Origin: Phytoseiulus persimilis
Taxonomy: Eukaryota > Arthropoda > Arachnida > Mesostigmata > Phytoseiidae
Direction of reading: 5' to 3'
Assembly: GCA_037576195.1 (NCBI GenBank)
Contig: CM075101.1
Coordinates: forward strand, 20,646,001 to 20,710,000
Length of the DNA stretch: 64,000 bases
This document shows, piece after piece, positions 1-51,958 of this stretch (the first letter of the stretch is position 1; each line of letters opens with the position of its first letter). The notes under the pieces were generated by a model. That model was not told the origin of the DNA. It saw only the letters and a program-made list of their open reading frames with translations, and did not search any database. Made by a program: the position numbers and the translations under genes.

Positions 1-980
1 ATCGAGACGAACGTTGTCGTCTCCAGGGGCTGGAGCCCGTTGTCTCTTGCGACAACGACCAACTCGTGGCTTTCTTTCGTCTCGAAGTCCAGCGGTTTGT
101 TCACGAAAATCTCGCCGCTCTTCGGGTCGATGTTGAAGTACTGCTCTCGGTCGCTTTGGCGCCGGTTGATCGAATAGCGGACCTCGCCGTTCGGGCCCTC
201 GTCGGTGTCGGTCGCGAGCACCCTGAGCACGGACGTGCCGACCGTCGCGTTCTCCGCGATCGTCGCCACGTAGTTTCCCTGGCCAAATATCGGCTGGTTG
301 TCATTCACGTCCTGGATGGTGATGTTGACCTGGAGGACGCCTTTCAGAGGGGGGCTCCCCCCGTCGTGGGCCTCGACGATCAGCGAGAAGTTCGGGGTGA
401 TCTCCCGATCGAGCACCCCGTTCACCTGCAGGTCGAGATAGAGGACGTCGTCGCGTTCCCTGTGGTAGGACAACTTGAACGCGTTGTTCGTGTTGCCGGA
501 TATTATCGAGTAGAACTGGGTGTTGAACTGGCCGAGGTCGCGGTCCCTCGCGGGAGCCAGGGTTCTTTTGGCGTCGCGCGGGGCGTTCTCCGCGAACTCG
601 ATGTGGATGAAGCTCGAGGGGAACTCGGGGGGATTGTCGTTCTCGTCGAGGACCTTGATGATGACTCGGACGTTCTCTCCGTGCTTGCTAGGGATCGCCG
701 TGAACGAGTACTCGGCGCGCGTTTCGCGATCCAGTGTCGTGTTGGTCCGAATTTCGCCGGTCGTTGTCACCACGACAAGATCCGAGTCAACATCGCTATT
801 GGCTACCGGAACGACGAAATAGGGAGGGGCCGGCGGACGATGAGTTGCTCCGTTCTTCGGTTGGCCGATGTATCCTATCACGGTACCGAGCGGCACGTTC
901 TCGCGGATTTCGAACTCCTGAAGGTACTCCGCCCCAGCCAGGGTCAGGAGACCCGAGAGCACGGGCAAGAGCAATCTCAT
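1..980 (-). CDS. ds: Dachsous-type cadherin, N-terminal exon (partial)
   Basis: Reading the minus strand from ATG at 980 gives about 326 residues with no stop before the window edge. Residues 1-17 are a signal peptide (MRLLLPVLSGLL...), followed by the start of an extracellular cadherin-repeat array. The calcium-binding signatures are clear: DENDNPPEF near the end of repeat 1, DVNDNQPIF at the end of repeat 2, several LDRE/LDFE motifs and DTDEGPNGE in repeat 3. The stretch SINRRQSDREQ followed by a FNIDPKSGEIF-like segment and LDFETKESHELVVVA resembles fly Dachsous as I remember it. Dachsous is a giant single-pass cadherin that binds Fat between cells in planar polarity and Hippo growth control. 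The rest of the gene lies to the left of the window. Cadherin identity is very safe; the choice of Dachsous over another large protocadherin is good but rests on memory of the family. Confidence 0.85.
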   Translation of the reverse strand, partial: MRLLLPVLSGLLTLAGAEYLQEFEIRENVPLGTVIGYIGQPKNGATHRPPAPPYFVVPVANSDVDSDLVVVTTTGEIRTNTTLDRETRAEYSFTAIPSKHGENVRVIIKVLDENDNPPEFPSSFIHIEFAENAPRDAKRTLAPARDRDLGQFNTQFYSIISGNTNNAFKLSYHRERDDVLYLDLQVNGVLDREITPNFSLIVEAHDGGSPPLKGVLQVNITIQDVNDNQPIFGQGNYVATIAENATVGTSVLRVLATDTDEGPNGEVRYSINRRQSDREQYFNIDPKSGEIFVNKPLDFETKESHELVVVARDNGLQPLETTTFVS

Positions 981-1019
981 CTCCCTGCGTCACCTTCCCG
1001 GATTGTCACCGACGATCAT
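981..1019 (-). promoter_or_regulatory. 5' leader of the cadherin with splice acceptor and tiny upstream ORF
   Basis: On the minus strand a pyrimidine-rich tract ending in TTCGCAG (cut after 1020) looks like a splice acceptor 39 bases before the cadherin ATG, so the leader is probably spliced and the promoter lies further right. The leader exon itself begins with an ATG opening a nine-codon frame that ends in TGA around 990, before the main start. It could dampen translation, or be chance. Confidence 0.4.
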
Positions 1020-8904: not shown

Positions 8905-8910
8905 TTTATT
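8905..8910 (-). promoter_or_regulatory. Polyadenylation signal of the LysA-like gene
   Basis: AATAAA on the minus strand, about 175 bases after the stop codon of the decarboxylase gene at 9083. Confidence 0.5.
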
Positions 8911-9082: not shown

Positions 9083-11601
9083 TCAGCGGTTTTCGAAGCC
9101 GTCCAGGTTCCGCTCGAGCATCAGTTGGTCCTCGAGCATTTGTCGTCGACTTATGAGCTTGAGCTTCCCGTTAGCGAGGATCATCACCTGGGGAGCGAGA
9201 AACGCACTAAATTTCTACGATTCCTCCTCCGGGAACATCGATGACTGAACGGGCTGGCCCCTCTCTTGGAGGTTAGTCAAGTAATCCCACACTGTTCCAG
9301 TGAATCTTACCTGAGCCGGCTTGTTCCTCGAATTGTAATTTGACGCCATCGAATACCCGTACGCGCCCACGTCGGTGACGACCAGCAGATCCGCCATTCT
9401 CAGTCGAGGCAAGGCACGAGATAATCCGAGGAAATCGGCGCATTCGCAAACGGGTCCGACGATGTCGTAGGTGACCGGCTCCTCAAGATTCGACCTGCGG
9501 AATGTTCTCGGACTCGGAACCGGGGCGCAAGTCCTCTTGAACAATCTGTTCCCCTGCAACTCGTTCAGAAGATCTTCGAAAGATTCTTTTGAGCCGCGGA
9601 GGTCTGGCGGCATCGAGTCCACTCGTCTCGAAAGGCGGGGGCTCGGGATGGGTTTTTTCGAGTTCCCGGGCAGTCTGAAACTCTCGGATGTTCTCAGGAG
9701 GTTCCCGGGGGAAGGAGGTGTTGAGGATTCGGGAATCATCCTGTCAGTGTTCAATTTTTCCGGCTGCATGGGAGGCTCGAATTCCGGCAGAATCCTGTGA
9801 GCGGTGCCGTAAAGGGCTGGCCTGATGAAGTCGTTCATGCCCGCATCGACCAGGACGAAATTTTTCTCCGATGAGTTCTTGATGTACTCCACTCGCGTCA
9901 GCAATAGACCACTCTGAGCTACAATAGATCTGCCCGGTTCCAAGAAGACGCGAATGTCTGTCAAGTACAGAATAAATCACATGAGGGATCAATGACACCA
10001 ATGCAAAGCTCATGAGTGGAACCTGGAGGAACTAGTTGAATTGTCGACCAGATGACGGAGGTTTCTATCTTCATGCGGGGAACCTACGAGCTCACTCGAT
10101 GAGCCCATGATGTACGTCAAAGGACAAGCATTCCGCATGAAAAAAGCTCCAACCTTTGTTGAGGAAGGGTGTCACGATTCTGTCAATGACTACCGGCAAG
10201 TTCAGTGGCATTTCGGCATCATCGTAGGGGACGCCGAACGACCCGCCGACGTCAACGTATGCTATCTTGAAACGTTTCGACTCGAACTGTTCCACGAGAT
10301 CGAGCGCATGGTCCCGCGCAATGTACAGTACCTGTCAACGTGGCAGCGTGGCAACGAGCATGAGTCATCTTCAAGTTTGAGGTGAGCACTAGCTCTTTCA
10401 GGTCACGGCCTTGGGCGGAAGAGGAACGACAAAATTTTGGGTGGCGCAAACGGGTTTGACCGAGTGTAACAGGAAGAGCTCCTGACTTACTTCTTCGTTG
10501 AGCATGGAACATCCAATATGGTAATGTAGACCCTCGACTTGGAATCGCTCTGCCAAACGAAGCGCTTCACCGGGGGAGATTCCGAATTTACCGTTCGCTG
10601 CACCAGTCGCCGAGCATACTTGGTCTGCACCTTCAACCACGTCGAAACTGATTCTGAGCGCCACTTTTGTTGTCGATTGGGGGCAGCTCTGCCGCAGAAT
10701 CTCGATTCGTTCTAGTTCTTCCTCACACTCCGCGTTAATTGAAAATATCTGTGAAAAGAGGACCAGCTCAGGTGCGGCTCAGGGTAAGATTTCGAGCACT
10801 TCTCCATGATGATCTCAAACATTGAAAATTCGCGAGGTGAGCGACGAAAAATGCGAAATCTCATTGCTCGCTCGAGTGGGTAACTCACATTATTGTAGAG
10901 ACAGTCTTTGAGAAAAGTCACCGACTTGGCTGGACCAGTTGCCACACAGTTCCTCAAAACCTGGAAAATATTGCAATGCTCTAAATCATAGTTCCCTCCA
11001 AGATTCTCGATTCGTTCACTTTCCTTAACAGGAACACTGTCAAAACTATCGGATCCGATTCCGCGCAGATTTATCACCATGAACATGAGATGCTGTCCAA
11101 CCCAACACGAACCTCCGGTTTGGTCGCTGTGACAACCCGTCGTAGCTCTTCAGAAGAAGCAACTTCGAAGAATGCTCCGCTTCTGTGCAATAGTTCCAAA
11201 ATCGAGAGGTTATTGTTCGCCTTGACTGCGTAGCACACCGTTACACCAGGCCGGTTGAGCGGGAACTGAGCGAGACAATCTCCCAAAACCTGGGAAAGTT
11301 GGGGTGAGCAAATCAGAGTTTCCTTGAAGCTACCGCTCCGAATGATGGGATCAGCTTCCTTGGAGCCAACGCTCATCTGAGTTCACGGAGTTAATCCGAT
11401 TTCTCGGAAAAATGATCAGGCGGTAGGTGTTCGGTGACACTTCGAATTTTCATCACTTACGGATTCAGAATATATGTATGTTGGAGTACCGTAGAGTTCC
11501 GCTATTTCTGAAACGGTTCGGCTGGAGAATGTCAGACGACCGTTGACGTAACTCAACCCCTTCGGTAGTTGTGTCATCACGTTCTTGTCAAGTGACTCCA
11601 T
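9083..11601 (-). CDS. Diaminopimelate decarboxylase-like protein (LysA family), 525 aa, seven exons
   Basis: Exons 11461-11601, 11113-11289, 10889-10960, 10491-10748, 10154-10331, 9311-9957 and 9083-9187 join in phase to give 525 residues. The ATG at 11601 fits the family N-terminus. Fold-III PLP decarboxylase marks: YAVKAN with the Schiff-base lysine (Lys70), HIGCS (207-211), the phosphate-binding GGSFG (245-249), EPGR (282-285), MNDFIRPALYG (316-326), CECADF (446-451), GAYG (473-476) and SNYNSR (481-486). The last four separate LysA from ornithine decarboxylase. LysA converts meso-diaminopimelate to lysine and CO2, the last step of bacterial and plant lysine synthesis, a pathway animals lack. 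About 95 residues (340-436), rich in Ser/Pro/Arg, are inserted between the two C-terminal halves. Some usual residues differ (HIGS to HIGC, CESGD to CECAD, GGG to GGS), so altered substrate use is possible. Ordinary introns and an AATAAA place it in the host genome. One weaker donor (GTTGGA at 10153) was chosen because only it fits the phase. Confidence 0.88.
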
Positions 11602-12759: not shown

Positions 12760-15221
12760 TTATTTGATCGTGATGCTTACGATGGTCACATCATCGTAGG
12801 GCTTGTCCGTTTTCGGGTGAGTCTTCACGAGTGAAATATTTTGAGCGACTTCCATTCCCTTGACAATCCGTCCGAACACAGTGTGTTTGTTGTCCAGCCA
12901 GGGGCATGGAACAACGGTCACAAAGAACTGTGAGCCATTCGTGTTCGGCCCGGCGTTAGCCATCGATAGAGTGTACGGTTTGTCGTGCTTCAAATCGGGA
13001 TGGAATTCATCCGCAAACTCCCCACCCCAGATAGATTCGCCGCCAGAACCGATACCAGTTGGATCTCCTGTTGTATCATGAAACCCTTGATAACTCGGTG
13101 GAAGATATGACCGTTATAATAACCGTTGCGGGAGTGCACGACGAAGTTTTCCACGGCCTTAGGGCATTCACGCGGGAAGAGCTTGATATGGATGTCTCCC
13201 ACGGACGTGTGAATAACAGCGTTCGACGCCAGGTTGGACTTCGACGATGTTTCTGTAGCGGCAACGATATCCTCTTTGGAAGGTTTCTCGTTGAAGACCT
13301 AAAATTGACCAAAATTCACATTCAGTAATCTTTAAGCAGTCAGCAGGCGAGGTCAACATCCGACCCAGTTGAAATCGATTCACGGAGTCCTCAGATGACA
13401 AAAAACACACTCACTTCTCTCTCCTCGTCTTCTCCAGGGACTCTGTTGGAGAAAAGATAGAATCTGTGCTTTCTAAAAGCACTGCACACGAGTGTTGGGT
13501 CGCAGAAGACGTCTTGAAGTGCAGGATTCTCCGCCGCTTGGGATTCTGCCGTGACCGACTTCTGATTGCTGCCAGGGATCCCTTGGTAAAGAGCGATGGC
13601 GAGAGGCCGAAGAGATTCGGGCTTCCCGAGAATCCGTACACATTTGTTCGATACCAAGTTGACCACCTGGAATACGCGGACAAAAGTCTAGTTAAGGGGT
13701 GGAGACCCAGCAGAAATTGGCGCTTTCCGCAGCAGGGCCAAGTCCATCCACTCACCTTAACACCAAGCAGAGTCGGGTAGAGCAGGAAGTTCCCGCTGTC
13801 ATCGAAAACAATATTCGATAAACGTAGCATGTCTGTCCGTTCCAAGTCTTTCTCCATGGCCATCCGTCGACCAAACTCCATGTTCGACAGCAGTTGGTTC
13901 TCGTTCTGGGCATCGGAAGCGGTTTTTAGGCTTTCGTCGAAAACTTTCCGAAGTCGCCCACTTCGGAAATCGAAGACACGGACCTGTGGAATCCAAACGT
14001 TCTAAGATTAGCGCCGCGGAAGAGGGAACCGAGGAGAACCGGGTTGCGTCGAGATCACTCACCTTGCGATCAGAAGCTGTGACGGCGAATCTATTCCCAT
14101 GTTTATCGAAAGCGATGTTGAAAGCGACGGCTTTGTCTTTCATCAGTTGGAATAGATCCGTGTCTAATTTGGAACTGAATTCTATGCATTCCGGTTCCTT
14201 GTAATCGGTAGAAGCACCAGACCAAATTTCGATGAAGCTCGTCTTGTCGATAGAAACCACGCAGTTCGTGCTCGGGCAGTACTTCAAACAAGCCACAGGA
14301 GCAGCGTGGAGCTTGTCGAGGACTCTCAGGGGAGTCGCGGTTTCCAGCCCATCATAGATGTAGATATGCGGTGTCTCTGATGCAGAGACGGCAACCACGC
14401 GCATCGCATCGCCTTGAGGATGAAAAAAGACTCGTGCCATCATTGTGAAAATAGTAACTATGTGATGCGATGTTTCTGAGATGCCTCTCCAAATAGGACC
14501 GACCTATTCGAATGATGTGAATCTAAGTGCGTTCTACCTTTTGTATAGATCCAGTCGCAGTGACTCGGAACGTAGTCGAACCGGAGTATATTGATGAGAT
14601 CGTAGTTGATGACATCGAAAACTTTCAAGGACTTGTCAGTGGAGATCGTGCAAAGGAGCGTTCCGTCCCAGTTGGCAGCGATATCCTGAATGTTACCTGT
14701 TTTTGAACAATTGGAATCATCTTCCCGGATAGGTATGAATATTTCGAGCCGAAAACTTCGACTTCGAGCATTCGAGGAACAAATCTCTATCGCGGACGAA
14801 CTACCTGTATGAGCTATGAAGAGTTTCACGAATTCGATTCCTGCTGTTAATTTCTTCCAAAACTTCACATGGCCATCCACCGACGCAGTGACGATGAACT
14901 CCGACTTTGTTACTACAATATGGCTTATCGTATCTCGATGCATGTACGATTTTTCGAACATCTCGGAGCTCGGTAGGTTGGCCAGAAACACCTGTGAAGG
15001 GGAGTCTGGAATCAGAACCGAAGAGAAAATATAGGCCCCTGGACGACAAGAAAGGAAAGCGCTCGGCTCATGCTGTTCATACCTTTTCAAACTTGAGAAC
15101 TTTCCGCTTCTTCGTCGGAGGCTGGATCCTCAGCTGCTAGTGTCGGTAGCGGACCAATCACATCCTCACCATCATTTCCGATGGTGTCGGGCTTTGACGG
15201 CGTTTGCTCCGACTCGGACAT
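12760..15221 (-). CDS. PPWD1: Peptidylprolyl isomerase domain and WD repeat protein 1 (PPWD1)
   Basis: Seven exons (15083-15221, 14805-14991, 14538-14696, 14063-14412, 13756-13983, 13415-13666, 12760-13298) give about 617 residues, close to the 646 of the human protein. An acidic N-terminus with IGPLP and KKRKVLKFE precedes WD40 repeats ([41 protein letters not shown]), then a C-terminal cyclophilin domain from about residue 455 with [45 protein letters not shown] and [10 protein letters not shown]. The isomerase arginine and glutamine positions ([10 protein letters not shown]) are present. PPWD1 is a nuclear spliceosome-associated prolyl isomerase. Two frame breaks: one surplus base between GPLP and KKRKV (about 15092-15110) and one missing A around 13069-13074 inside GFMIQ-TGDPTG. 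Everything else is intact, so both look like sequence errors rather than decay. A GT-AG 5' end and phase agree for all other junctions. Confidence 0.93.
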
Positions 15222-18685: not shown

Positions 18686-21600
18686 TCAAGGCAGGGATCC
18701 GTTGCTCATCTGGAACGACTTCGAGCAACACTTGTTGCCTTCGGCGGCCGACCGATCGTTTTCCTTTGGCACGGTCGAGTATGTTTGCGAATTACGACGT
18801 TTGTACCGAAACAACAGCCTACAGACGACAAAGATAGCTATAATAGTATGGAGGAATAATAAGAGAACATAAACAGCGACGAAGATGGGGAAGAATGCTA
18901 TCCACTGTCCTCGCTCGGTGAACCCGATCGCAACCTCCTGCTCCTCGAGACCCCAGCCACGGAACATGATATAGAAGAGTGATTCAATGGACCTCCTGGT
19001 AGGACATAGTATCGGATGCTGCGAATTATGTCCGGCCTCATAGAAAGGAACCAAAGCGACGCTGAAAATCGAAGTTCCTTCCGATGTAAGAGATTGAACT
19101 GTGAGAGCGGTGGCACCCACAGTGTTCACGAAGTCGGAGCTTATGCGATTGTTCCGGAGAAAATGCTCCAAGAAGGATTGGCTCATTCGTGATTATCATA
19201 TGAACGTCTGATTCGAATAATCGGCGTGATTCGTCCGAAACTGTTAACATTACAACTAAGGTCGATGCTTACCCAAGATGTGAATCATTGCGGACAGGTG
19301 TGTGCTACAATGAAATAACGCCCCGAAAAATGTATCAGCAGTCTCGATTCTGACGAGAAGGATAGGTAATGCAATCGTGAGTCCGACGGCCATGCCTTGA
19401 AGACCTTTCTCAAGTATCAGACGGATGACGAGAGTTGGTGACCCTTCCAGTGGGAGCAGACTAGCCCAGTATAAGAGGCTTACACAAACGAGGAGGACAG
19501 CTGCGTGTAGAGCCAGATGAAGCAGCAGCGACAAAAGAGTTGAAACAATTACTTCAACGGGTTTCACACCAGCTAACGCCAGCCGCGTATCCATAACGTT
19601 TATATTTATCTGAGTCTGGGTGGCTGCGACGAGCAGTGTTATTACGAAAGGGACCAGGAGGAGTAGTGTCGGGGCCAGGAACTCGAATCGACTTATAAAT
19701 CTCGATCCGTAGACGGGATCACGGATTTCCAAATTCACTTGGGCATGGGAAGCGTTCTTTGTTCTGACAATATTCAGCCGGAAGTCCTGGAATCAGAGCA
19801 TTAAGGAAGTGTCTTATCAACCCTGCAATCGTTGGGCCGTATCTGGTCGAAGGGGCAACCTGAACACCCAGAGTTGGGAGATGTTCGCCGAATCTCCATC
19901 TCAGATCTCAGTCCTGGATTGTTACACTAACCTCCAAGACGTCATACCAAGGCACCTTCCAAGACGTGAATATGTTTTGCAGCAAAACGAATCTCGTTTC
20001 TTGGTCGACTGTTTCGAGGTCGATGTCGAGCGTGGAGTTGTGTGAGGTTTGGTTGTCTTCGGTCGCAAACGTGCACTGGAGTCGATATTGAGGAGCTGCT
20101 GAGAAGTTCTGTCCGATTTCCATCATGGCGAACGTTTCGCCTCGTTCCATACTGCAAGGGCCTCAAGCCGGTTGCTATATGGTACTTGCTGAAACTTCTC
20201 TTCTGGCAAGGAATCGAGAAATGCTTCCGCGAAGGTTGAATTCCCATCCGATTTCACCACAGCGAGCCTCTGGGAGCCGACCGTCATGAATACGAGGTAG
20301 TGTATCGAAACAAATACGATTGCGAACCATGTGATTCTCCGTAATGCTCTATAATTATCTGCCTTGAGCAGCTTATTTTTATACACGTAGAGCAAGAGAA
20401 TCCGACGCCAGGAGTCCAAGAGCATTTTGAGGTGTTCAGTTAATCCGGTAGAGCCGCTGGTCGCCGCAGAGGCCGAGGTGAATTCCATTCCCTGAGAAGC
20501 TTTGCATAACGGAGCCTTCTGTGGAAACAGAAGTGACATCGGTTGAGATTCTCGCTCTCCCACGGTGAAGATCCGTGCGTTTGATGAGGAATATAACACA
20601 CAGACCTCTAGTTTGGTTTCCCACGCAGTCTCGTGGCATTCTTCTGTAACAGGCCCGCCGCTTTCGCTGTGTCGAACGACCTTTCCCCGTTGTCCATCCT
20701 GAAGTTTGCGAAAAACTTCTCCGAGATCTCCGCATTGGAACTCCTGCAGCAGCCTGTCGGGTGAATCTTCAGCAATGAGTCGCCCGTGATTGAAGAAGCC
20801 GACGATGTCGGCATGACCTGCTTCCTCGGGGTCTGCTGTCAGAAGCAGGACGGCTACGTCCTCGTCACGAGTCAGCGTCGTGAAGAAACTCCAGATCCTG
20901 CAAGAATAACCAAATGGTCCCGAGAATCTTTTCACTTGGACGCTTGCATTGTCCGAGACAGCGCGAACGAGCTGCCCTTCGTCTTCTTCTCTTTCATTCT
21001 ATTGTCGAAGACAGAAATGAAGGCGAATGCTGATTCGACACCAACGGAACTCACTTCTCCCGAGATGACGCGTCTTGTTCCCATGTAGGCTCCTCAACGA
21101 TCAGCAGCGAAGGCGAATGGATGAAAGCAGCTGCCAGGTCCACTCGGCGCATATCCAAATACGGTAAATCAATGAATCGAGAGCATTCGTGCGGGAGCTG
21201 CAGCAACTCTGAGAGAGCCGGAAACGCTCTGTGGATGGGTCAGACGAAAATTGGACACCGAGGAACAGCTTGTAATCATAACTTGGAGCGATATTCGAGT
21301 CGACGGATCTTTGATGCCAGTATTTTCGAAGCCCGTCGGTTTCCCTCCCGATTCAGTAGGGCAAAACTAGAGAATGTTCTTTGCTGAACTCACGCAGGAT
21401 CAGACCAGCGGACATTTATGGAGTCTCCCGAGAAAAGTCAAGTAATCTTGAATCGTAGTGAGCGCCTCGAAACGTTGCTTCAGTGGAAGGTAGCCGACAG
21501 CTTGTCCAGGTGGGATCTTCTCCAGCGTTGACGCTATCCATTTCGGGAGCAGCGTCTGTGGAGGAAGGTCGATGCCCGCTATCTCTTCGTATTTAGTCCT

Positions 21601-35500: not shown

Positions 35501-38500
35501 AAATTGGGCTCGGAAGGCGGCTTCAAAACCTACTCCAAGGTCTATACGAATCACATGCTGGCTCTCAACAAGCACCAGCATGCCGAAGAACGAGACAAGA
35601 AGCGTCACTTATCGCACAAGTTCTCTCTGACACCAGCGTCAGAGTTCAAATGGATTTCTGTTCCAAGTGAGTGAAAACTGCGCAGGATAGTTGCTCCCTC
35701 ACAGACGGGATCAAAATAACAGATCTTCCACTTTGCCACGAGTTTGGTCTCAATCACATTTTTCCCCCCGCCATCGGCCATCAGCTCAAGCGACGCCTGT
35801 TTCGGACCTGACATCGGTGCTGAGCACGGTTCGAAGCACCATAGTCCACTTGGAATCTCAGTTGGGGAGCTGCTTGTTCCACCCTCAGTGGACTTCCACT
35901 TTCCGCGCGGAATGGCTGCAAGCCGTCAACAAAAGTGCGAGGACGCGAGACTACGTCAGAGCACTCCAGGTCTGGTGCTGGCATCCAATTATCTGAGTTG
36001 CTCCGTTCGGTGGTGGCTCGCTCGACTGACTCGATTCTTATTCACGATTCCAGCTGCTTGAGAGTGTGATCAAACCTTGCGCTCTAGTCACCGCTTGGAC
36101 GGAATGTCTCGGACACACTTTTCTTCGACGCACGACGCAGGTGGAACGCGAGGAGAAGAAGAAACAGGACAAGAAAGAGCGGCGTGGTATCGCCGGATTC
36201 ATGGCTCTGTATTCAGGGGTCACAGAAGATGGCGAAGACGTCAGCGACCGATCTCTGTGGTGTAAATACACCCTGGGTTTGAAACATCAGGTCTGGAAAC
36301 AGAAAGGAGAAGAGTTCCGGATCACAGGCACCGGCGGCTGGTTCTGGAACTCACGGACTCGAGTGGTCCGCCTCCAGCCGATGGCAAAGCAGGGACTACG
36401 CGCGGGTCCGGCCAAAGTCAGTATCTACATACCCAGCACCGACTCGTATCGTACCGTGGACGCATCCAAACTCGAGAACGCGTCAGTGACGAGGCCTTCT
36501 GGGAAATCGCGGAACTGACCGGCCCTGGACTGATCAGAGCGATCTGCGATCAGCACACACCGTCGATCGAAGACGTCATCGACGTCGGAGAGGCGCTCCT
36601 GGATCCGAAACGGAAATTTTATCCAAGGTAGGGTTCTTCTCCAGCGACGAGTTTTCCGGATCGAGATCCGCCCGACGCGTTGGTTCCTAGAGACTCTCCG
36701 CCTTAACTCGTACGACCTAACAACAACTTATCTGCAGGCTGACAACAGGGAAAGCGAAGCTGGACGCCCTGCTCGAGAAGCGAGTCAACTTCGGAAAAGA
36801 GGTCAAGAAAGAGAACGGGAAGTGTGACCCCGACAAGTTTCTGCCACCGGGTCTGAGATGCTACGGCTGTACGGAAGCCACTCGGCATCAATGCTACTCG
36901 CCTTTGTGTCGCGCTCATGTAAATCACGCGGTCGAGAGCAGCAAGCGAGGCGATACCAAACAGAAGTTCGACCTAGGGTTTCGCAGTGGCCCCCAGAAGA
37001 AGGTTTTGCGGAAGAAAGTTCTGCCCCCGATCCAAACGTTCATGACGAACATAGGGAAACGACGATCGGTATTGGTCCTGGACAAAGTCGACTATAAGAA
37101 ATTGTCACGGAAAGGTGGCCTGGGAGAAGCCCAAGGCTTCAACTATTTATCCAAGTCGAACAGTGAAGTGTGGAACTACGGCTCGTCCCCGCGACCGGTT
37201 CTTCGGACCATGTGGCGATGGCGGAACACGCAGAGCCTTCATAACAGCTGCAGTTGGATCGCTCTGCAGTTGAGAATCCTGTGGCATTGTCTCAAGTGGA
37301 TGACATCGCCATGAAACCTCCACCGGGCGGCTCGAACACGGTCACGACTGATTCTCAAGTGGAGACCAGTGAGCTCGTAAAACGTCGGGATCTCCCGCCC
37401 TACTTGTTGAGATCAGAGTATCTCGTAGGAAGATAACGGTCCCGATCGACTTGCCGACGAAACCTCGAGAGAAGACGACCCCGCAGCGGAGCGGGCTGCG
37501 GGAACGGCGACGTCCGGAATCGCCTCAAAACAAAGGACCGCAAGTAGGTGTTCTTTCCTCGACCGCGGATGTCATGTTTTGACACGTTGCCCTCACGAGG
37601 ATGATTTCCGTGACTAAAATCGGAGCCCTTCACAGATAAGCGAGGTTTGGACAGCCGAGAGCACCTAGAAATCTGGGAACTCAAGATTTTCCAAGAAAAA
37701 TTGGAAAAACAGATCAAGGATCGCCAGCAGGAGAAAGTACGCGTAAGGGAATTTCAGTTTCGTTCTGCAGTGGAATTTGCCTCCGATTCCATCTCCCTGT
37801 GCCCATCTTCCTGTGCTGCTTTCAGATCAACACCCCAGCAACCCAAATCGGTGATAGAGTGCAATTGGTTCACATCACCCCGAGAACGACAGTGGTCTCG
37901 GCCGGCGTCACGACCCCTATCAACTCGAACAACATCATCGGTGTGAAAGTCGGTGCGTATCACGGCGAGCGTAATCTGCTCTGACTTGCTGCCCTCGTGG
38001 AACTTTCTCCATACCTTTGCGATCCTAACGGTTTTCGATATTTTTCCCCAGTGGGACCAGGAAAGAGTCCGGCGGAAATTCGAGCCACCATGGAAGCTAA
38101 CCTTCGAGCTCAACGATTGGCACATCAGAATAACAAGAAAATCATGTCTGTCACTACGACCACCACGAACTCTCTCGGGACCGTGGTCGTTAGCGGTGCG
38201 GGCATGATCAGCGGGCAAGGCGGCACCGTGGTTCAGACAAACATCGGAGGACTCGGGGTGCGAAGAATAGTTGCGCAAGCCGGACAGGGACAACTAGCAC
38301 AATTGCAAACCGTTAGAAATACCGGCCCGAAACAGGTAGGCGACACGAGTACCATGGCATTGTGGTGGAAATCCAAGAGCCGCAAAACTCACGATCTGGG
38401 AGAAAAACTGCCACTGACCCGGAAACTCGATTGCAGATTATCATACGTCCTGCCGGTGCTAATGCAACAGTCATCGCATCCGGTTCAGGCACCAGAATGG

Positions 38501-41500
38501 TATCTCCCACGATCGGAGCCGTCATTAGACAAGGAGGAGTCCGTCCTCAGGTATTGTTGGATCCCAGCAGAAGAGAGTATCTCTCCAAGCGTCCGGGCGT
38601 TTTGGCTCGATGCCACAGTGCCCGCGCCTCGCTTTTGTTCGCTCGAGATCTCATGGAGTATGCCCGATTGTTCTGCAGGTTCAGATTCTCCAAGGACCCA
38701 ACGGCCAACTGACAGTTCGAGGACTACAGCCGGGTCAGCAACTGCTCAAGCTGCCTGATGGACGCCTCCAACTTGTCAACATGAATCAGCAGAAACCGAT
38801 TTCCCTTCCCACCCAGTCTGGCCAACCTGTCCAGAAAATAATGATTCAGACAGCACCCACCGGACAGCCGGGGGGTGCCGGTCAGAGATTCATCCAAATT
38901 CGCCCGGCCCTACCCGTCGGAACTCCGACGCATTTGCCAACCACCACCGTTCGTGCAGTCAAGATAATCCAGGCAGCGCAGCCAACTGGCTCTCCCGTCG
39001 TGCGTTCCCAACTCGATAACATATTTGAAAACTAATTCTGCGTTTGAATAATCCATCTTAGAGAAGATCTCCCTAATTATTTCCGTTCTCCTCGCGGCCC
39101 AGGTAACCGCCGTGTCTCAAGCCGGTTCCATAATACAGGCGGGTTCGGGCCAAACCGTTCAAGTCGTGCAGGCTAGTTCCGGTCAAGCCATGTTGTTGAA
39201 CGCGGGCACTGTGCTCACGACGAACGCAGGACAAGGCTCAACTACAACCACGTTCGTCCACCCCGGCGGCGGACAACTCCCACAAAAAGTACGTCCCCCG
39301 ATTCAGGGCTTCGAAAGCTCTGGGCCCGACATTCTTCCGCCCAATTCTGTTTGGTTTTCAGTGGGAATCGACCGGCTCCGGTATCGATGACTTCGACCAT
39401 TCTGGGTCGTTTGATTTGATCTGATGAAGTTTTTTCCTCCTTACCAGGTGGTCTTAAGTCCCATGGGGCAGACCCCGCAACTCATCGTGACGAATGCTGC
39501 TTCTTCATCCTCAAACGTCGTCCCGATGAAAACCGAAATCAAGAAAGAGCTCTTACCCAACCCCTCCACGCCGACGTCCATGGCTCCAAGAATCATCGTG
39601 GCGTCCCAACCATTGGGCCCAAAGGTATCTCTCCAAGTTCTCTCCTTATCTCACCTCCGTCATTCATGTCTGACTCCTGATTCCACGGCTTCATTCGGGG
39701 AATCCGTCCATTTTCCAGTTGGTATCGAACACCATCGCCCCGGTACAGGTGGTTCGAGCAACACCAGTGGCTTCTATAAAAAGTGGGGCGAGCCCTCAAG
39801 CGATCGGTGCTGCTGCTTCCACTGCTCCGGCAACGGGTGGCAGCACGACGTTTGTTTTGGGTCCAGCTATCACACAGCAGATCGTGAAGCAGGTAAACAG
39901 CGATGCGAAAGTAGGAAATAGTTACGAGACGGTTGAGGCGCCCTGCGTTGAAAACGAACTCAACTCAAAGGGCGAACGGTCAGCGGCCCTCTCGTAACTA
40001 GCTTCGATTTTGAAGGCCTCCATGAACACAACGAACGTTGAAACTCGGGAGTTTGGTTTCCAAACTTCTGAAGCCAGTCGTACCCCGACGCCGATACAAA
40101 ACCAGACAAAAACCCTGCCACCTCTACTACCTTTGAACAAGGTGGCTATCTCGTCCTCGTCGTTTCCGTGGTCGTTGTCCAATGCCCCCGTTCCGTTGAA
40201 AAGTTTGCGTACAAGTTGCGAGATACTGGGCTGAAAGCGTTCCCGGGACACGAAGCGAGCCAAACTCAGCGAAACTTCCGATTGCAGAAACAGACTCCTC
40301 AAATAGTTTCCAAAGCGGTGAACGCGGTCGCCGTGAAGCCGGAACCTCCCAATGATGAAAATTCAACGAATCCCAACACTCGCCAAGATGAAGTCAAAGA
40401 CCCAATCGACGCGACTGTGCCCGCGGTCACCCCTCCAGCAGTTGTACAAGCCCCAGCGACGTGTGACTCAAGCCAAGTATCTCAACAAGTGCTTGGGAGC
40501 GCTGCCGCTCCGACAGAGAAGGAAGAAAAGCGAACGCATCCCGCGCCAGCGAGGAAACCAAAATTGCGGGACCCGGAATTTCAGCGCAGATTGCAACGTA
40601 GCAAGGTTCGCATTCCGATCTTGTGTTTGATCATGGATTCTTGTCTCCCGGATGAACGTGGATAGACATGGATTGGTTGTGGTGTCGGAGCGGTGATACA
40701 CTCCTCGACGTTTGCGAATCGTCAGCCCGCGGTCGTAGGAATAGCTCGCGTTATCGATCGTAGTTCGAATCTCGGCAACAAAGGCATTTGCATCTCTTCT
40801 AGGCTCTGGTTAACCGCCATGCTGATATTCTTCGGAAGAGCATCATGCGCAAAAGAGCTCTCATGGAGAAGAAGCTTGCCCTACAAATTGAGAATGAGGT
40901 TCAGAAGGAAAGACTGAAAGTGTGTCAAGTACAGCCCCAACAGCAGCCACAGCCGCAGCCGTCGAAGTTTGCCTCAAATGTAAATTGGAGTCAAACTCTT
41001 CCTGTTGCTCGGAATTTCCGTTCTCTTGTCGCTGTCTCCGAGGACATTCATGCTTACCTCACTCCCCTCGTGTCTCTCGAGTTCTCTTGACCGATGCCCA
41101 TCTAGTCTTCTCTTAGGTTTTGTTTACAAAATCAGATATTCCATCATGAGTTCTCCTCTGTTACAGTCCCCATCTCTGGCGACGAGCAATGGCTCACAAC
41201 TAAAAACCGTCCCGGCTGTTGCGAAAAAAGTCCCGCCGCAAGGCCCCGTGAAGACAGCACAACTCAAGCCGCCAGGGCAGCCGGCCAACAAGAAACGAGC
41301 AGCTTCGAATGCGTCTCCTGCAACCGTAAGTTCCGCCGAAAACTGGTTGGCCTGGAAAAGTGTTTTCGGAGTCCGATCTCGGACTGACATGAAATTCAAC
41401 TTCAGAATGCTCCCTGTCCGTCGTCGTCGCCTGCCAAGAAGAGAGCCCACGCAGTGGCCACCCCGAGCACGGAGGATTCCACGGTAATCTTTGCTTCCCA

Positions 41501-50256: not shown

Positions 50257-51958
50257 ATGAGTGTGCTTCGACTCGGCGGTCTCTGCTGCTGTAGGGCCTC
50301 ACAACTGCAAGGTCGGCTGCTGAGTAGATGGAGCTGCAGCGTTGCTCGAAGCAAAGACGATGGCGCAACACCGCTACAAGCGAAGGTACACACGGAGCAG
50401 CATTTATTCGAAGCTTATACCAAATTTTCATACTGATGATGAGTTATGCTCTCATTTCTCAGCATATTCTTAGTTTTTGAAGTCCCTCGAAGGAATCGAG
50501 GCGTCGAGAGAGATTAACGGATATTTGCATGCTTTCGAGAATATTTTTGAGATCCTCTAGATATAATTCTGTTTTACAAAAATCCGCAATCGTATGAGGA
50601 CCAGTCGTAGACCGCGAATCTCATCTAATTCTCAAGGAGAATGGCCTCTAGAATAGCCCACTTTGTATTTTCCAGGCGAGAGACATCAACGCCCCGATAC
50701 TGGAGAAGTTCGTCCTTGCCATGCCGAAGAATTGTCAACCGTATTTACGTTTGATGAGAGTTGAGCGGCCCATAGGAACTTGGTTGACTCTGCTTCCAGG
50801 CCTATGGAGTTTGGCTTTGGCGACTCCCGCGGGACAACTTCCCGATTTGAAGTTGGTTGCGCTGTTCGGTGCCGGCGCTCTCCTCATGAGGGGCTTCGGT
50901 TGTACTGTGAACGACATGTGGGATAAGGACATCGACAGGAAAGTCGAGAGGACCAAGGATCGACCTTTGGCAGCTGGAGAACTTTCGCGTTGGGATGCCC
51001 TATGGTTTTCGGCGGGACAAGCTGGCTTGGCCTGCCTCATACTACTACAACTCAACTGGGAAAGGTCTACCGCCAATCGAATCATTCCGCTGTTTCGCCA
51101 GGTATCGTGGAGTGCCTCTTTAACGTCAATCTCCTGTTGCAGTGTGCAGCTCGGCACAGCTTCAGTCGGACTTGTTGTGCTGTATCCTTTCATGAAGAGG
51201 ATCACCTACTGGCCGCAAGCTTATCTGGCCGTCGTTTTCAATTGGGGCGCGCTCCTGGGATTCTCCGCAGTTCAAGTGAGTCGAATCGCTCCATTTTCTC
51301 CACAATACTCCGCGGTAGTCGTGTGCAAGACGCGAGAGTCGAAAACTACTGATCCTTTTCAGGGGTCCTCTATGAGCTGGGCAGCGGCCCTCCCCGTATA
51401 CGCCGCGGCTCTCTCGTGGACAATGGTATACGATACAATATACGCACATCAGGTGAGTTTTCAGGATCGTCGACAATTCCATTGATAAACGTTCCTGCTA
51501 CCCGTTCACTGGAAGTTTGATTTTCGCGAATTCGAGATTCACCTTCTGCACTTCGCAGGATAAGAAGGACGATCTCATGATCGGCACGAAGTCCACGGCC
51601 CTCAGATTCGGATCCAGAACCCCGCTGTGGTTGGGTGCGTTCACGACTTCGATGGCCACGAATCTTCTGCTCGCGGGCGCAACCAGTGGACAGACTTGGC
51701 CTTATTATTCGGCAGTAGCCATCGCGACAGCTCATCTCCTCAAACAAGTAGGCGCTCGAGGTTACAAATCTAGAGAGGAAACTTAAGGAGGCGATAGTTC
51801 GCGCAAACGGTCTAGTGATCAATTATATTCGTTCCCAGGTGTGTACATTGGACATTACAAATCCTAAAGACTGTGCGACAAAGTTCGTATCCAACAAGAA
51901 TGTCGGTCTGCTCATCTGGGCCGGTAGTGTTGCCGGAACGTTCCTGAAACCGGTTTGA
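50257..51958 (+). CDS. COQ2: 4-hydroxybenzoate polyprenyltransferase, mitochondrial (COQ2)
   Basis: Six exons (50257-50385, 50676-51064, 51143-51275, 51363-51452, 51559-51747, 51839-51958) give 349 residues with no frame break. Exon 1 encodes an arginine- and cysteine-rich, acid-poor leader (MSVLRLGG, LLSRWSCSVARSK) typical of mitochondrial import; the ATG at 50257 is preferred over the internal Met at 50721, which would lose it. The enzyme core follows: QPYLRLMRVERPIGTWL, the first Asp-rich motif NDMWDKDIDRKVERTKDRP, TYWPQAYLAVVFNWGALLG, and the second motif YDTIYAHQDKKDD split across exons 4 and 5. Several membrane helices lie between. COQ2 attaches the polyprenyl tail to 4-hydroxybenzoate in the inner mitochondrial membrane, the committed step of ubiquinone synthesis. 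Confidence 0.96.

Follow-up and report, generated by a model that had tools for sequence, protein, structure and literature searches.

A spliced, bacterial-type lysA gene among animal genes in Phytoseiulus persimilis and the possible use of diaminopimelate by its product

Introduction

For animals, lysine is among the essential amino acids, and the diaminopimelate (DAP) route to it is one that they normally lack. The presence of a gene resembling bacterial lysA, which encodes diaminopimelate decarboxylase (LysA), in a 64,000-nucleotide stretch of Phytoseiulus persimilis DNA (this whole stretch is called the window below) raises three questions: whether the gene belongs to the animal, where it came from, and what its product does. 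Host lysA genes have been described in the whitefly Bemisia tabaci and the mealybug Planococcus citri, where they were inferred to derive from independent transfers; the whitefly gene clusters with Isosphaera (Planctomycetes), and the symbiont Portiera lacks lysA (PMC4607527, in part). The preliminary description of the window had named sap-feeding insects as a precedent, which agrees with these portions of that paper. The acquisition of a peptidoglycan-recycling gene by aphids is a related case (PMC8689515, in part). In choanoflagellates dapF has been reported, and lysAC was flagged and failed a later filter (PMC7971027, in part). Among the matches listed in the open-access literature on transferred genes, lysA and mites, none described lysA from a mite or from another chelicerate; public annotation may well name the gene already.

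Results

Gene structure and family assignment

The gene lies on the minus strand at 9083-11601, where a spliced gene for 525 residues had been proposed. Seven exons (Table 1) and six introns, all of them GT-AG and measuring 171, 152, 140, 159, 196 and 123 bp in transcript order, give a spliced translation of 525 residues with no internal stop, and the proposal is thus borne out; the reading frame past successive exons is 0, 0, 0, 0, 1 and 0. The four motifs on which the preliminary description relied (YAVKAN, EPGR, MNDFIRPALYG and SNYNSR) are all present in the translation, and the polyadenylation signal that it listed was also found, as a candidate AATAAA. The introns are shorter than the mean of 420 bp given for the phytoseiid Neoseiulus cucumeris (PMC6902594, in part). 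An Rfam gathering search and a tRNA search returned no matches in the window.

Table 1. Positions of the lysA parts and of neighbouring features, in window coordinates
Feature	Position	Strand	Remarks
CELSR-type cadherin-repeat open stretch	3-989	-	closest CELSR1, 366 bits; on lysA's other side from PPWD1
AATAAA, candidate polyadenylation signal	8905-8910	-	172 nt beyond lysA stop
lysA exon 7, including stop codon	9083-9187	-	
lysA exon 6	9311-9957	-	carries EPGR, MNDFIRPALYG, CECAD, GAYGYSMASNYNSR
lysA Pro/Ser/Arg-rich insert of 99 residues	9485-9781	-	residues 335-433
lysA exon 5	10154-10331	-	carries GGS (G247S)
lysA exon 4	10491-10748	-	carries active-site loop and HIGC (S210C)
lysA rewritten active-site loop	10605-10625	-	residues 172-178 DQVCSAT; most LysA rows THPYIST
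lysA exon 3	10889-10960	-	
lysA exon 2	11113-11289	-	carries PLP lysine K70 (YAVKAN) and D89E
lysA exon 1	11461-11601	-	start codon at 11601
PPWD1, cyclophilin-domain open stretch	12763-13113	-	on the strand of lysA, roughly 1.2 kb upstream of it
PPWD1, WD-repeat open stretch	13802-14503	-	
UbiA-type prenyltransferase open stretch	50652-51482	+	nearest to 4-hydroxybenzoate octaprenyltransferase; 209 bits, short of the 275 required by the prokaryotic cut-off

Against TIGR01048, the NCBIfam equivalog model for lysA, the protein scored 313.4 bits with E = 1.7e-93, so that open stretches joined by mere chance can be dismissed as an explanation. The curated cut-off of 297.9 bits is cleared narrowly, by 15.5 bits, three prokaryotic LysA proteins scoring 507-522 bits. 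Pfam recognized the PLP-binding domain (1.5e-36) and the C-terminal domain (4.2e-21) of the decarboxylase superfamily. Animal ornithine decarboxylase (ODC) and antizyme inhibitor (AZIN) share this superfamily by their Pfam domains; in a search of solved structures, however, the human ornithine decarboxylase reached 58 bits and antizyme inhibitor 1 (AZIN1) 37 bits, against 219, 217 and 212 bits for the top matches, the LysA proteins of Aquifex, Psychromonas and Vibrio. Two chloroplast enzymes scored 162 and 161 bits. Judged by its sequence, the window gene encodes a bacterial-type LysA, as the preliminary description had held, and not an animal ODC or AZIN; the product is a PLP-dependent fold-III decarboxylase.

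With bacterial LysA (TIGR01048; Aquifex aeolicus 2p3e) the protein has in common the fold-III type, as read from sequence, the catalytic lysine, and the motifs EPGR, NDxxRP, CE..D and GAYG. It differs from bacterial LysA in the 99-residue insert, the altered active-site loop, HIGC, GGS and the six introns, and identity is 38-39% at best.

Genomic setting

The gene had been described as flanked by ordinary animal genes and adjoining PPWD1, and both points hold. The two PPWD1 open stretches have PPWD1 itself as their top solved relatives, a CELSR-like cadherin stretch lies on the other side, and farther along the same contig there are a class I aldolase, whose top solved matches are mainly aldolase A, and the UbiA-type stretch, which is probably the animal COQ2 gene as far as sequence similarity tells. 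These other genes were sampled rather than covered exhaustively: open reading frames were ranked, and 20 were scanned in Pfam and 10 in NCBIfam. No further gene of the lysine pathway occurred among those scanned.

Two other regions of the window deserve mention. The stretch at 20126-20998 (-) has weak similarity to ABC-transporter ATPases (RbbA and DrrA models, E 2.7e-6 and 1.1e-4) and is possibly part of an animal ABC transporter. A run of long open stretches at 36030-41484 (+), six of which were scanned and gave no Pfam matches, is perhaps one large gene of no recognised family.

In base composition and codon usage lysA resembles its neighbours. Its GC3 is 0.61, and six neighbouring stretches span 0.48-0.82; the upper value belongs to the CELSR-like stretch, which stands above the other five (0.48-0.66). 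The codon usage of lysA correlates with that of neighbouring host stretches with r = 0.61, compared with -0.02 for its introns read as codons. The GC content of the window is about 0.51; a table in PMC5467014 (seen in part) gives 52% for Metaseiulus occidentalis and 30-45% for nine other chelicerates, so that the value would suit a phytoseiid mite. Given the animal genes elsewhere on the contig and the neighbour-like GC3 and codon usage, bacterial contamination is a very unlikely source of the gene. The earlier judgement to this effect is upheld by the six spliceosomal introns as well. Of the features that mark the whitefly-type cases, a place in the nuclear genome beside animal genes and the possession of introns are found here.

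Origin of the gene

The closest prokaryotic LysA is 37.7% identical to the window protein in an alignment of 82 rows and 39.2% identical by BLAST. In whole-genome searches identity did not exceed 40% over the barrel and rose to 56% for C-terminal pieces. Several prokaryotic phyla are about equally near. These searches were made at E <= 0.001, except for the alphaproteobacterial class (1e-40), in which 18 of 96 genomes had a match. At the general threshold there were matches in 9 of 116 genomes of the chlamydial phylum, in 35 of 40 of the Sumerlaeota phylum and in 131 of 149 of the planctomycete phylum, none of the last closer than those of other phyla. A scan of genome contigs gave at least 592 stretches, of which 584 encode a relative and 80 were kept, and all 14 genomes holding such loci matched the window LysA. 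Viral contigs gave no match with the window protein as sole query; in an alignment-based search one of 188 pattern matches was a LysA, and it was placed among alphaproteobacteria in the 86-row tree.

For the trees, 113 loci were read, 110 of which had a long enough alignment, and five later loci (L114-L118) were added. Repeats (L088, L102, L108-L110), one short row (L036) and 24 rows more than 72% identical to another were removed. The largest tree comprised 85 rows and the window protein with its insert excised; L093, L111, L117 and L118 were left out of an 82-row quick tree and of the AU tests. A 58-row tree was made also without L114, L089-L091 and 24 proteobacterial rows, and with L119, L120, L122 and L123 added. 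The rows were drawn without animal ODC and without known Bacteroidota, cyanobacterial, archaeal, plant, choanoflagellate or other-animal sequences.

In the 86-row tree the window LysA falls inside the main LysA group, apart from two paralogous rows, on a long end branch of 2.71 changes per column (2.7 to 3.1 across trees). It is joined there to one Sumerlaeota row (99/81). In the 82-row quick tree it falls in no starred set, and in the 58-row tree, which has three more rows of the Sumerlaeota phylum, it leaves Sumerlaeota for an open fork. We discarded the Sumerlaeota sister grouping, as it is undone either by leaving out four long rows or by adding rows of that phylum. AU tests rejected none of the joins to alphaproteobacteria (p 0.776), to Bacillota plus Fusobacteria (0.833) or to Acidobacteriota (0.766), and in each of the three the constrained tree did better than the unconstrained one. 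The tree check that had been suggested was carried out in part, among LysA rows, and the join found there is unstable.

Membership in the LysA family is thus clear. No donor emerges from the sequences compared, as identity is 38-39% at best and the position shifts with sampling. The best reading is that of an old bacterial lysA domesticated in an animal nuclear genome. The idea of an old transfer that later gained introns, put forward from the sequence beforehand, fits the six introns, the host-like codons and the lack of a close donor.

One row of the 86-row tree is of separate interest. The LysA of a chlamydial genome (L068, Candidatus Rhabdochlamydia MAG) groups with proteobacteria, which reflects either a bacteria-to-bacteria transfer or a binning error.

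Active-site residues

The window protein was compared, residue by residue, with 82 LysA rows (L093, L111 and L117 being left out), a few of which come from plasmid, viral or phage-collection records. Conservation reaches 90% or more in 82 columns; the window protein has the conserved residue in 64 of these (78%) and a changed one in 18. For comparison, the median row retains 99% of such columns; retention is 89% or higher in 73 of the 82 rows and 68-81% in the other nine.

Retained residues are K70, H207, E282-R285 (EPGR), R321 and Y325 (NDFIRPALY), C446, E447 and D450, Y475 and Y483. The LysA catalytic set is present in K70, H207, E282 and R285, which we take to be the PLP lysine, the stacking histidine, and the EPGR glutamate and arginine. 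The residues of NDxxRPxxY (R321, Y325), CExxD (C446, E447), GAYG (Y475) and SNYN (Y483) presumably surround the distal end of DAP. Part of these distal-end roles can be found in PMC12599289 (in part).

The changes concern features that are usual in LysA without defining it, the THxYIxTG loop, HIGS and GGG, which are replaced by DQVCSATG, HIGC and GGS. The loop reads THPYISTG in most LysA rows; T172D and H173Q alter positions that are T in 76 and H in 77 of the 82 rows. We take the DQVCSATG segment to be the active-site loop, because the structure search included 2qgh, the LysA of Helicobacter pylori, and 3c5q, its I148L active-site-loop mutant, and the I/L difference between these two chains lies in YIST. 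Of the other changes, D89E affects a residue that is D in all 82 rows, S210C (HIGS to HIGC) one that is S in 80, and G247S the third glycine of the PLP-phosphate loop (79 G and 3 S); N164S and P165F also belong to the 18.

In a cyanobacterial LysA, docking ties D118, S249 and G286, among others, to PLP or DAP, and seven of eight mutants were nearly inactive, R196A being the named exception (PMC12599289, in part). By our own motif count, not that of the paper, these three residues would correspond to D89, S210 and G247 here. As the pocket changes D89E, S210C and G247S would thus fall on docking-linked positions, it is not safe to assume that the window protein acts as an unaltered LysA.

Exon 6, which encodes mostly the C-terminal domain, is 43-55% identical to 30 prokaryotic rows, compared with 38-39% at best for the whole protein. 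The barrel has accordingly diverged faster.

The insert

The loop between the NDFIRPALYG and VGPVCE strands has 117 residues in the window protein; in the 82 LysA rows its median length is 23 residues and the longest has 38. The extra 99 residues lie wholly within exon 6 and include 16 Pro, 13 Ser and 12 Arg. The motif PSPRxxRR occurs twice; none of 100,000 shuffles reproduced this, a result that is only indicative since the motif was picked after being seen. A random stretch of 99 codons would stay open with a probability of 0.011. We considered the possibility that the insert is an unspliced intron and rejected it: no GT donor in exon 6 scored above 2.6, against 3.6-11.1 for the six real donors, on a generic animal splice consensus. 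When frame-keeping removals of at least 60 bp were listed, no good in-frame GT-AG pair excising the insert was found. When exon 6 alone was modelled in AlphaFold2 together with 30 prokaryotic rows, the mean pLDDT was 60 and the insert was drawn, at low confidence, as coil with one helix. The insert may be a flexible segment, perhaps phosphorylated, that serves in regulation or binding.

Discussion

When columns are ranked by falling conservation, the window protein agrees with the consensus of the 82 LysA rows at 78, 53, 34, 25 and 15%. Such a gradient is expected under constraint, and some gradient of this kind would be seen in any homologue. Together with the intact splice sites and 525 open codons, its smoothness suggests a protein that evolves fast but under constraint, and not a relic.

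In the scenario that we propose, an ancestor of the animal would long ago have acquired a bacterial gene for LysA. Six introns would then have been added and codon usage would have come to resemble that of the host, with selection maintaining the gene. The product would be a PLP-dependent fold-III decarboxylase, presumably cytosolic, and is expected to form a dimer in which one subunit supplies C446 and E447 to the site that surrounds K70 of its partner. It would make L-lysine from meso-diaminopimelate set free by symbionts or gut bacteria or from bacterial cell walls taken in with prey, and the insert could serve as a flexible regulatory or interaction segment. That the protein is a working PLP-dependent decarboxylase which turns bacterial-origin meso-diaminopimelate into lysine seems to us somewhat probable, going by its sequence. 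A broader possibility, which we regard as tentative and on the doubtful side, is that the animal has made a bacterial lysA its own enzyme, with a loop of new sequence, an altered cofactor pocket and a regulatory insert that looks open to phosphorylation, and that this enzyme serves either symbiont-free lysine salvage from bacterial walls or the decarboxylation of a different amino acid.

The same bacterial origin might also have been followed by a shift in function, to a decarboxylase for a different amino acid or to a protein that is regulated or moonlights and acts on DAP only weakly. The rewritten loop, the three pocket changes at what we map as docking-linked positions, the insert with its two PSPRxxRR motifs and the long end branch all argue in this direction. 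However, the distal-DAP residues R321, Y325, C446 and E447 are retained, the lysA cut-off is passed, and the low retention of conserved columns is shared by nine comparison rows, not all of which are proven LysA proteins. We consider such a shift rather unlikely. It would be more improbable still that the donor was another eukaryote, such as an alga, or that the gene goes back to a lysA of early opisthokonts instead of coming directly from bacteria. The flagging of choanoflagellate DAP-pathway genes as candidate transfers (PMC7971027, in part) and the ambiguity of the donor, none of three different joins being rejected by the AU test (p 0.78, 0.83 and 0.77), would leave room for it, but the LysA proteins of Aquifex, Psychromonas and Vibrio outscore the two chloroplast enzymes by about 50 bits or more.

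A decayed relic that has lost its translation could account for the 18 changed columns; it is highly improbable given the 525 open codons, the intact splice sites at all six introns, and conserved columns that are kept far better than variable ones. An assembly chimera or bacterial contamination is scarcely credible in view of the spliceosomal introns, the polyadenylation signal, the host-like GC and codon use and the animal genes on both sides; moreover, no prokaryotic barrel was nearer than 40% in the searches made. The reading of a domesticated bacterial lysA whose product probably acts on diaminopimelate is the one that we retain.

Compared with known cases, the gene has in common with the host lysA of whitefly and mealybug a bacterial origin and a place in an animal genome. 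In the whitefly, the gene groups with that of Isosphaera, a planctomycete (PMC4607527, in part), whereas the window LysA had no nearer match in 149 genomes from the planctomycete phylum than in other phyla. Choanoflagellates, relatives of animals, likewise hold candidate horizontally acquired lysine-pathway genes; dapF is the one reported there (PMC7971027, in part), whereas lysA stands alone among the scanned open reading frames of the window. Transfer of lysA as such is known from whitefly and mealybug; the rewritten loop, the insert and the pocket changes in the window protein are additions to the preliminary description.

The window gene opens a direct test of the conversion of DAP to lysine by an animal protein, and of the entry of labelled DAP or peptidoglycan into the lysine pool. 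If lysA is present outside sap-feeding insects, and has been retained for a time sufficient for six introns to arise and identity to fall to 38-39%, some animals may use diaminopimelate, a molecule otherwise known as a component of bacterial cell walls and as an immune signal.
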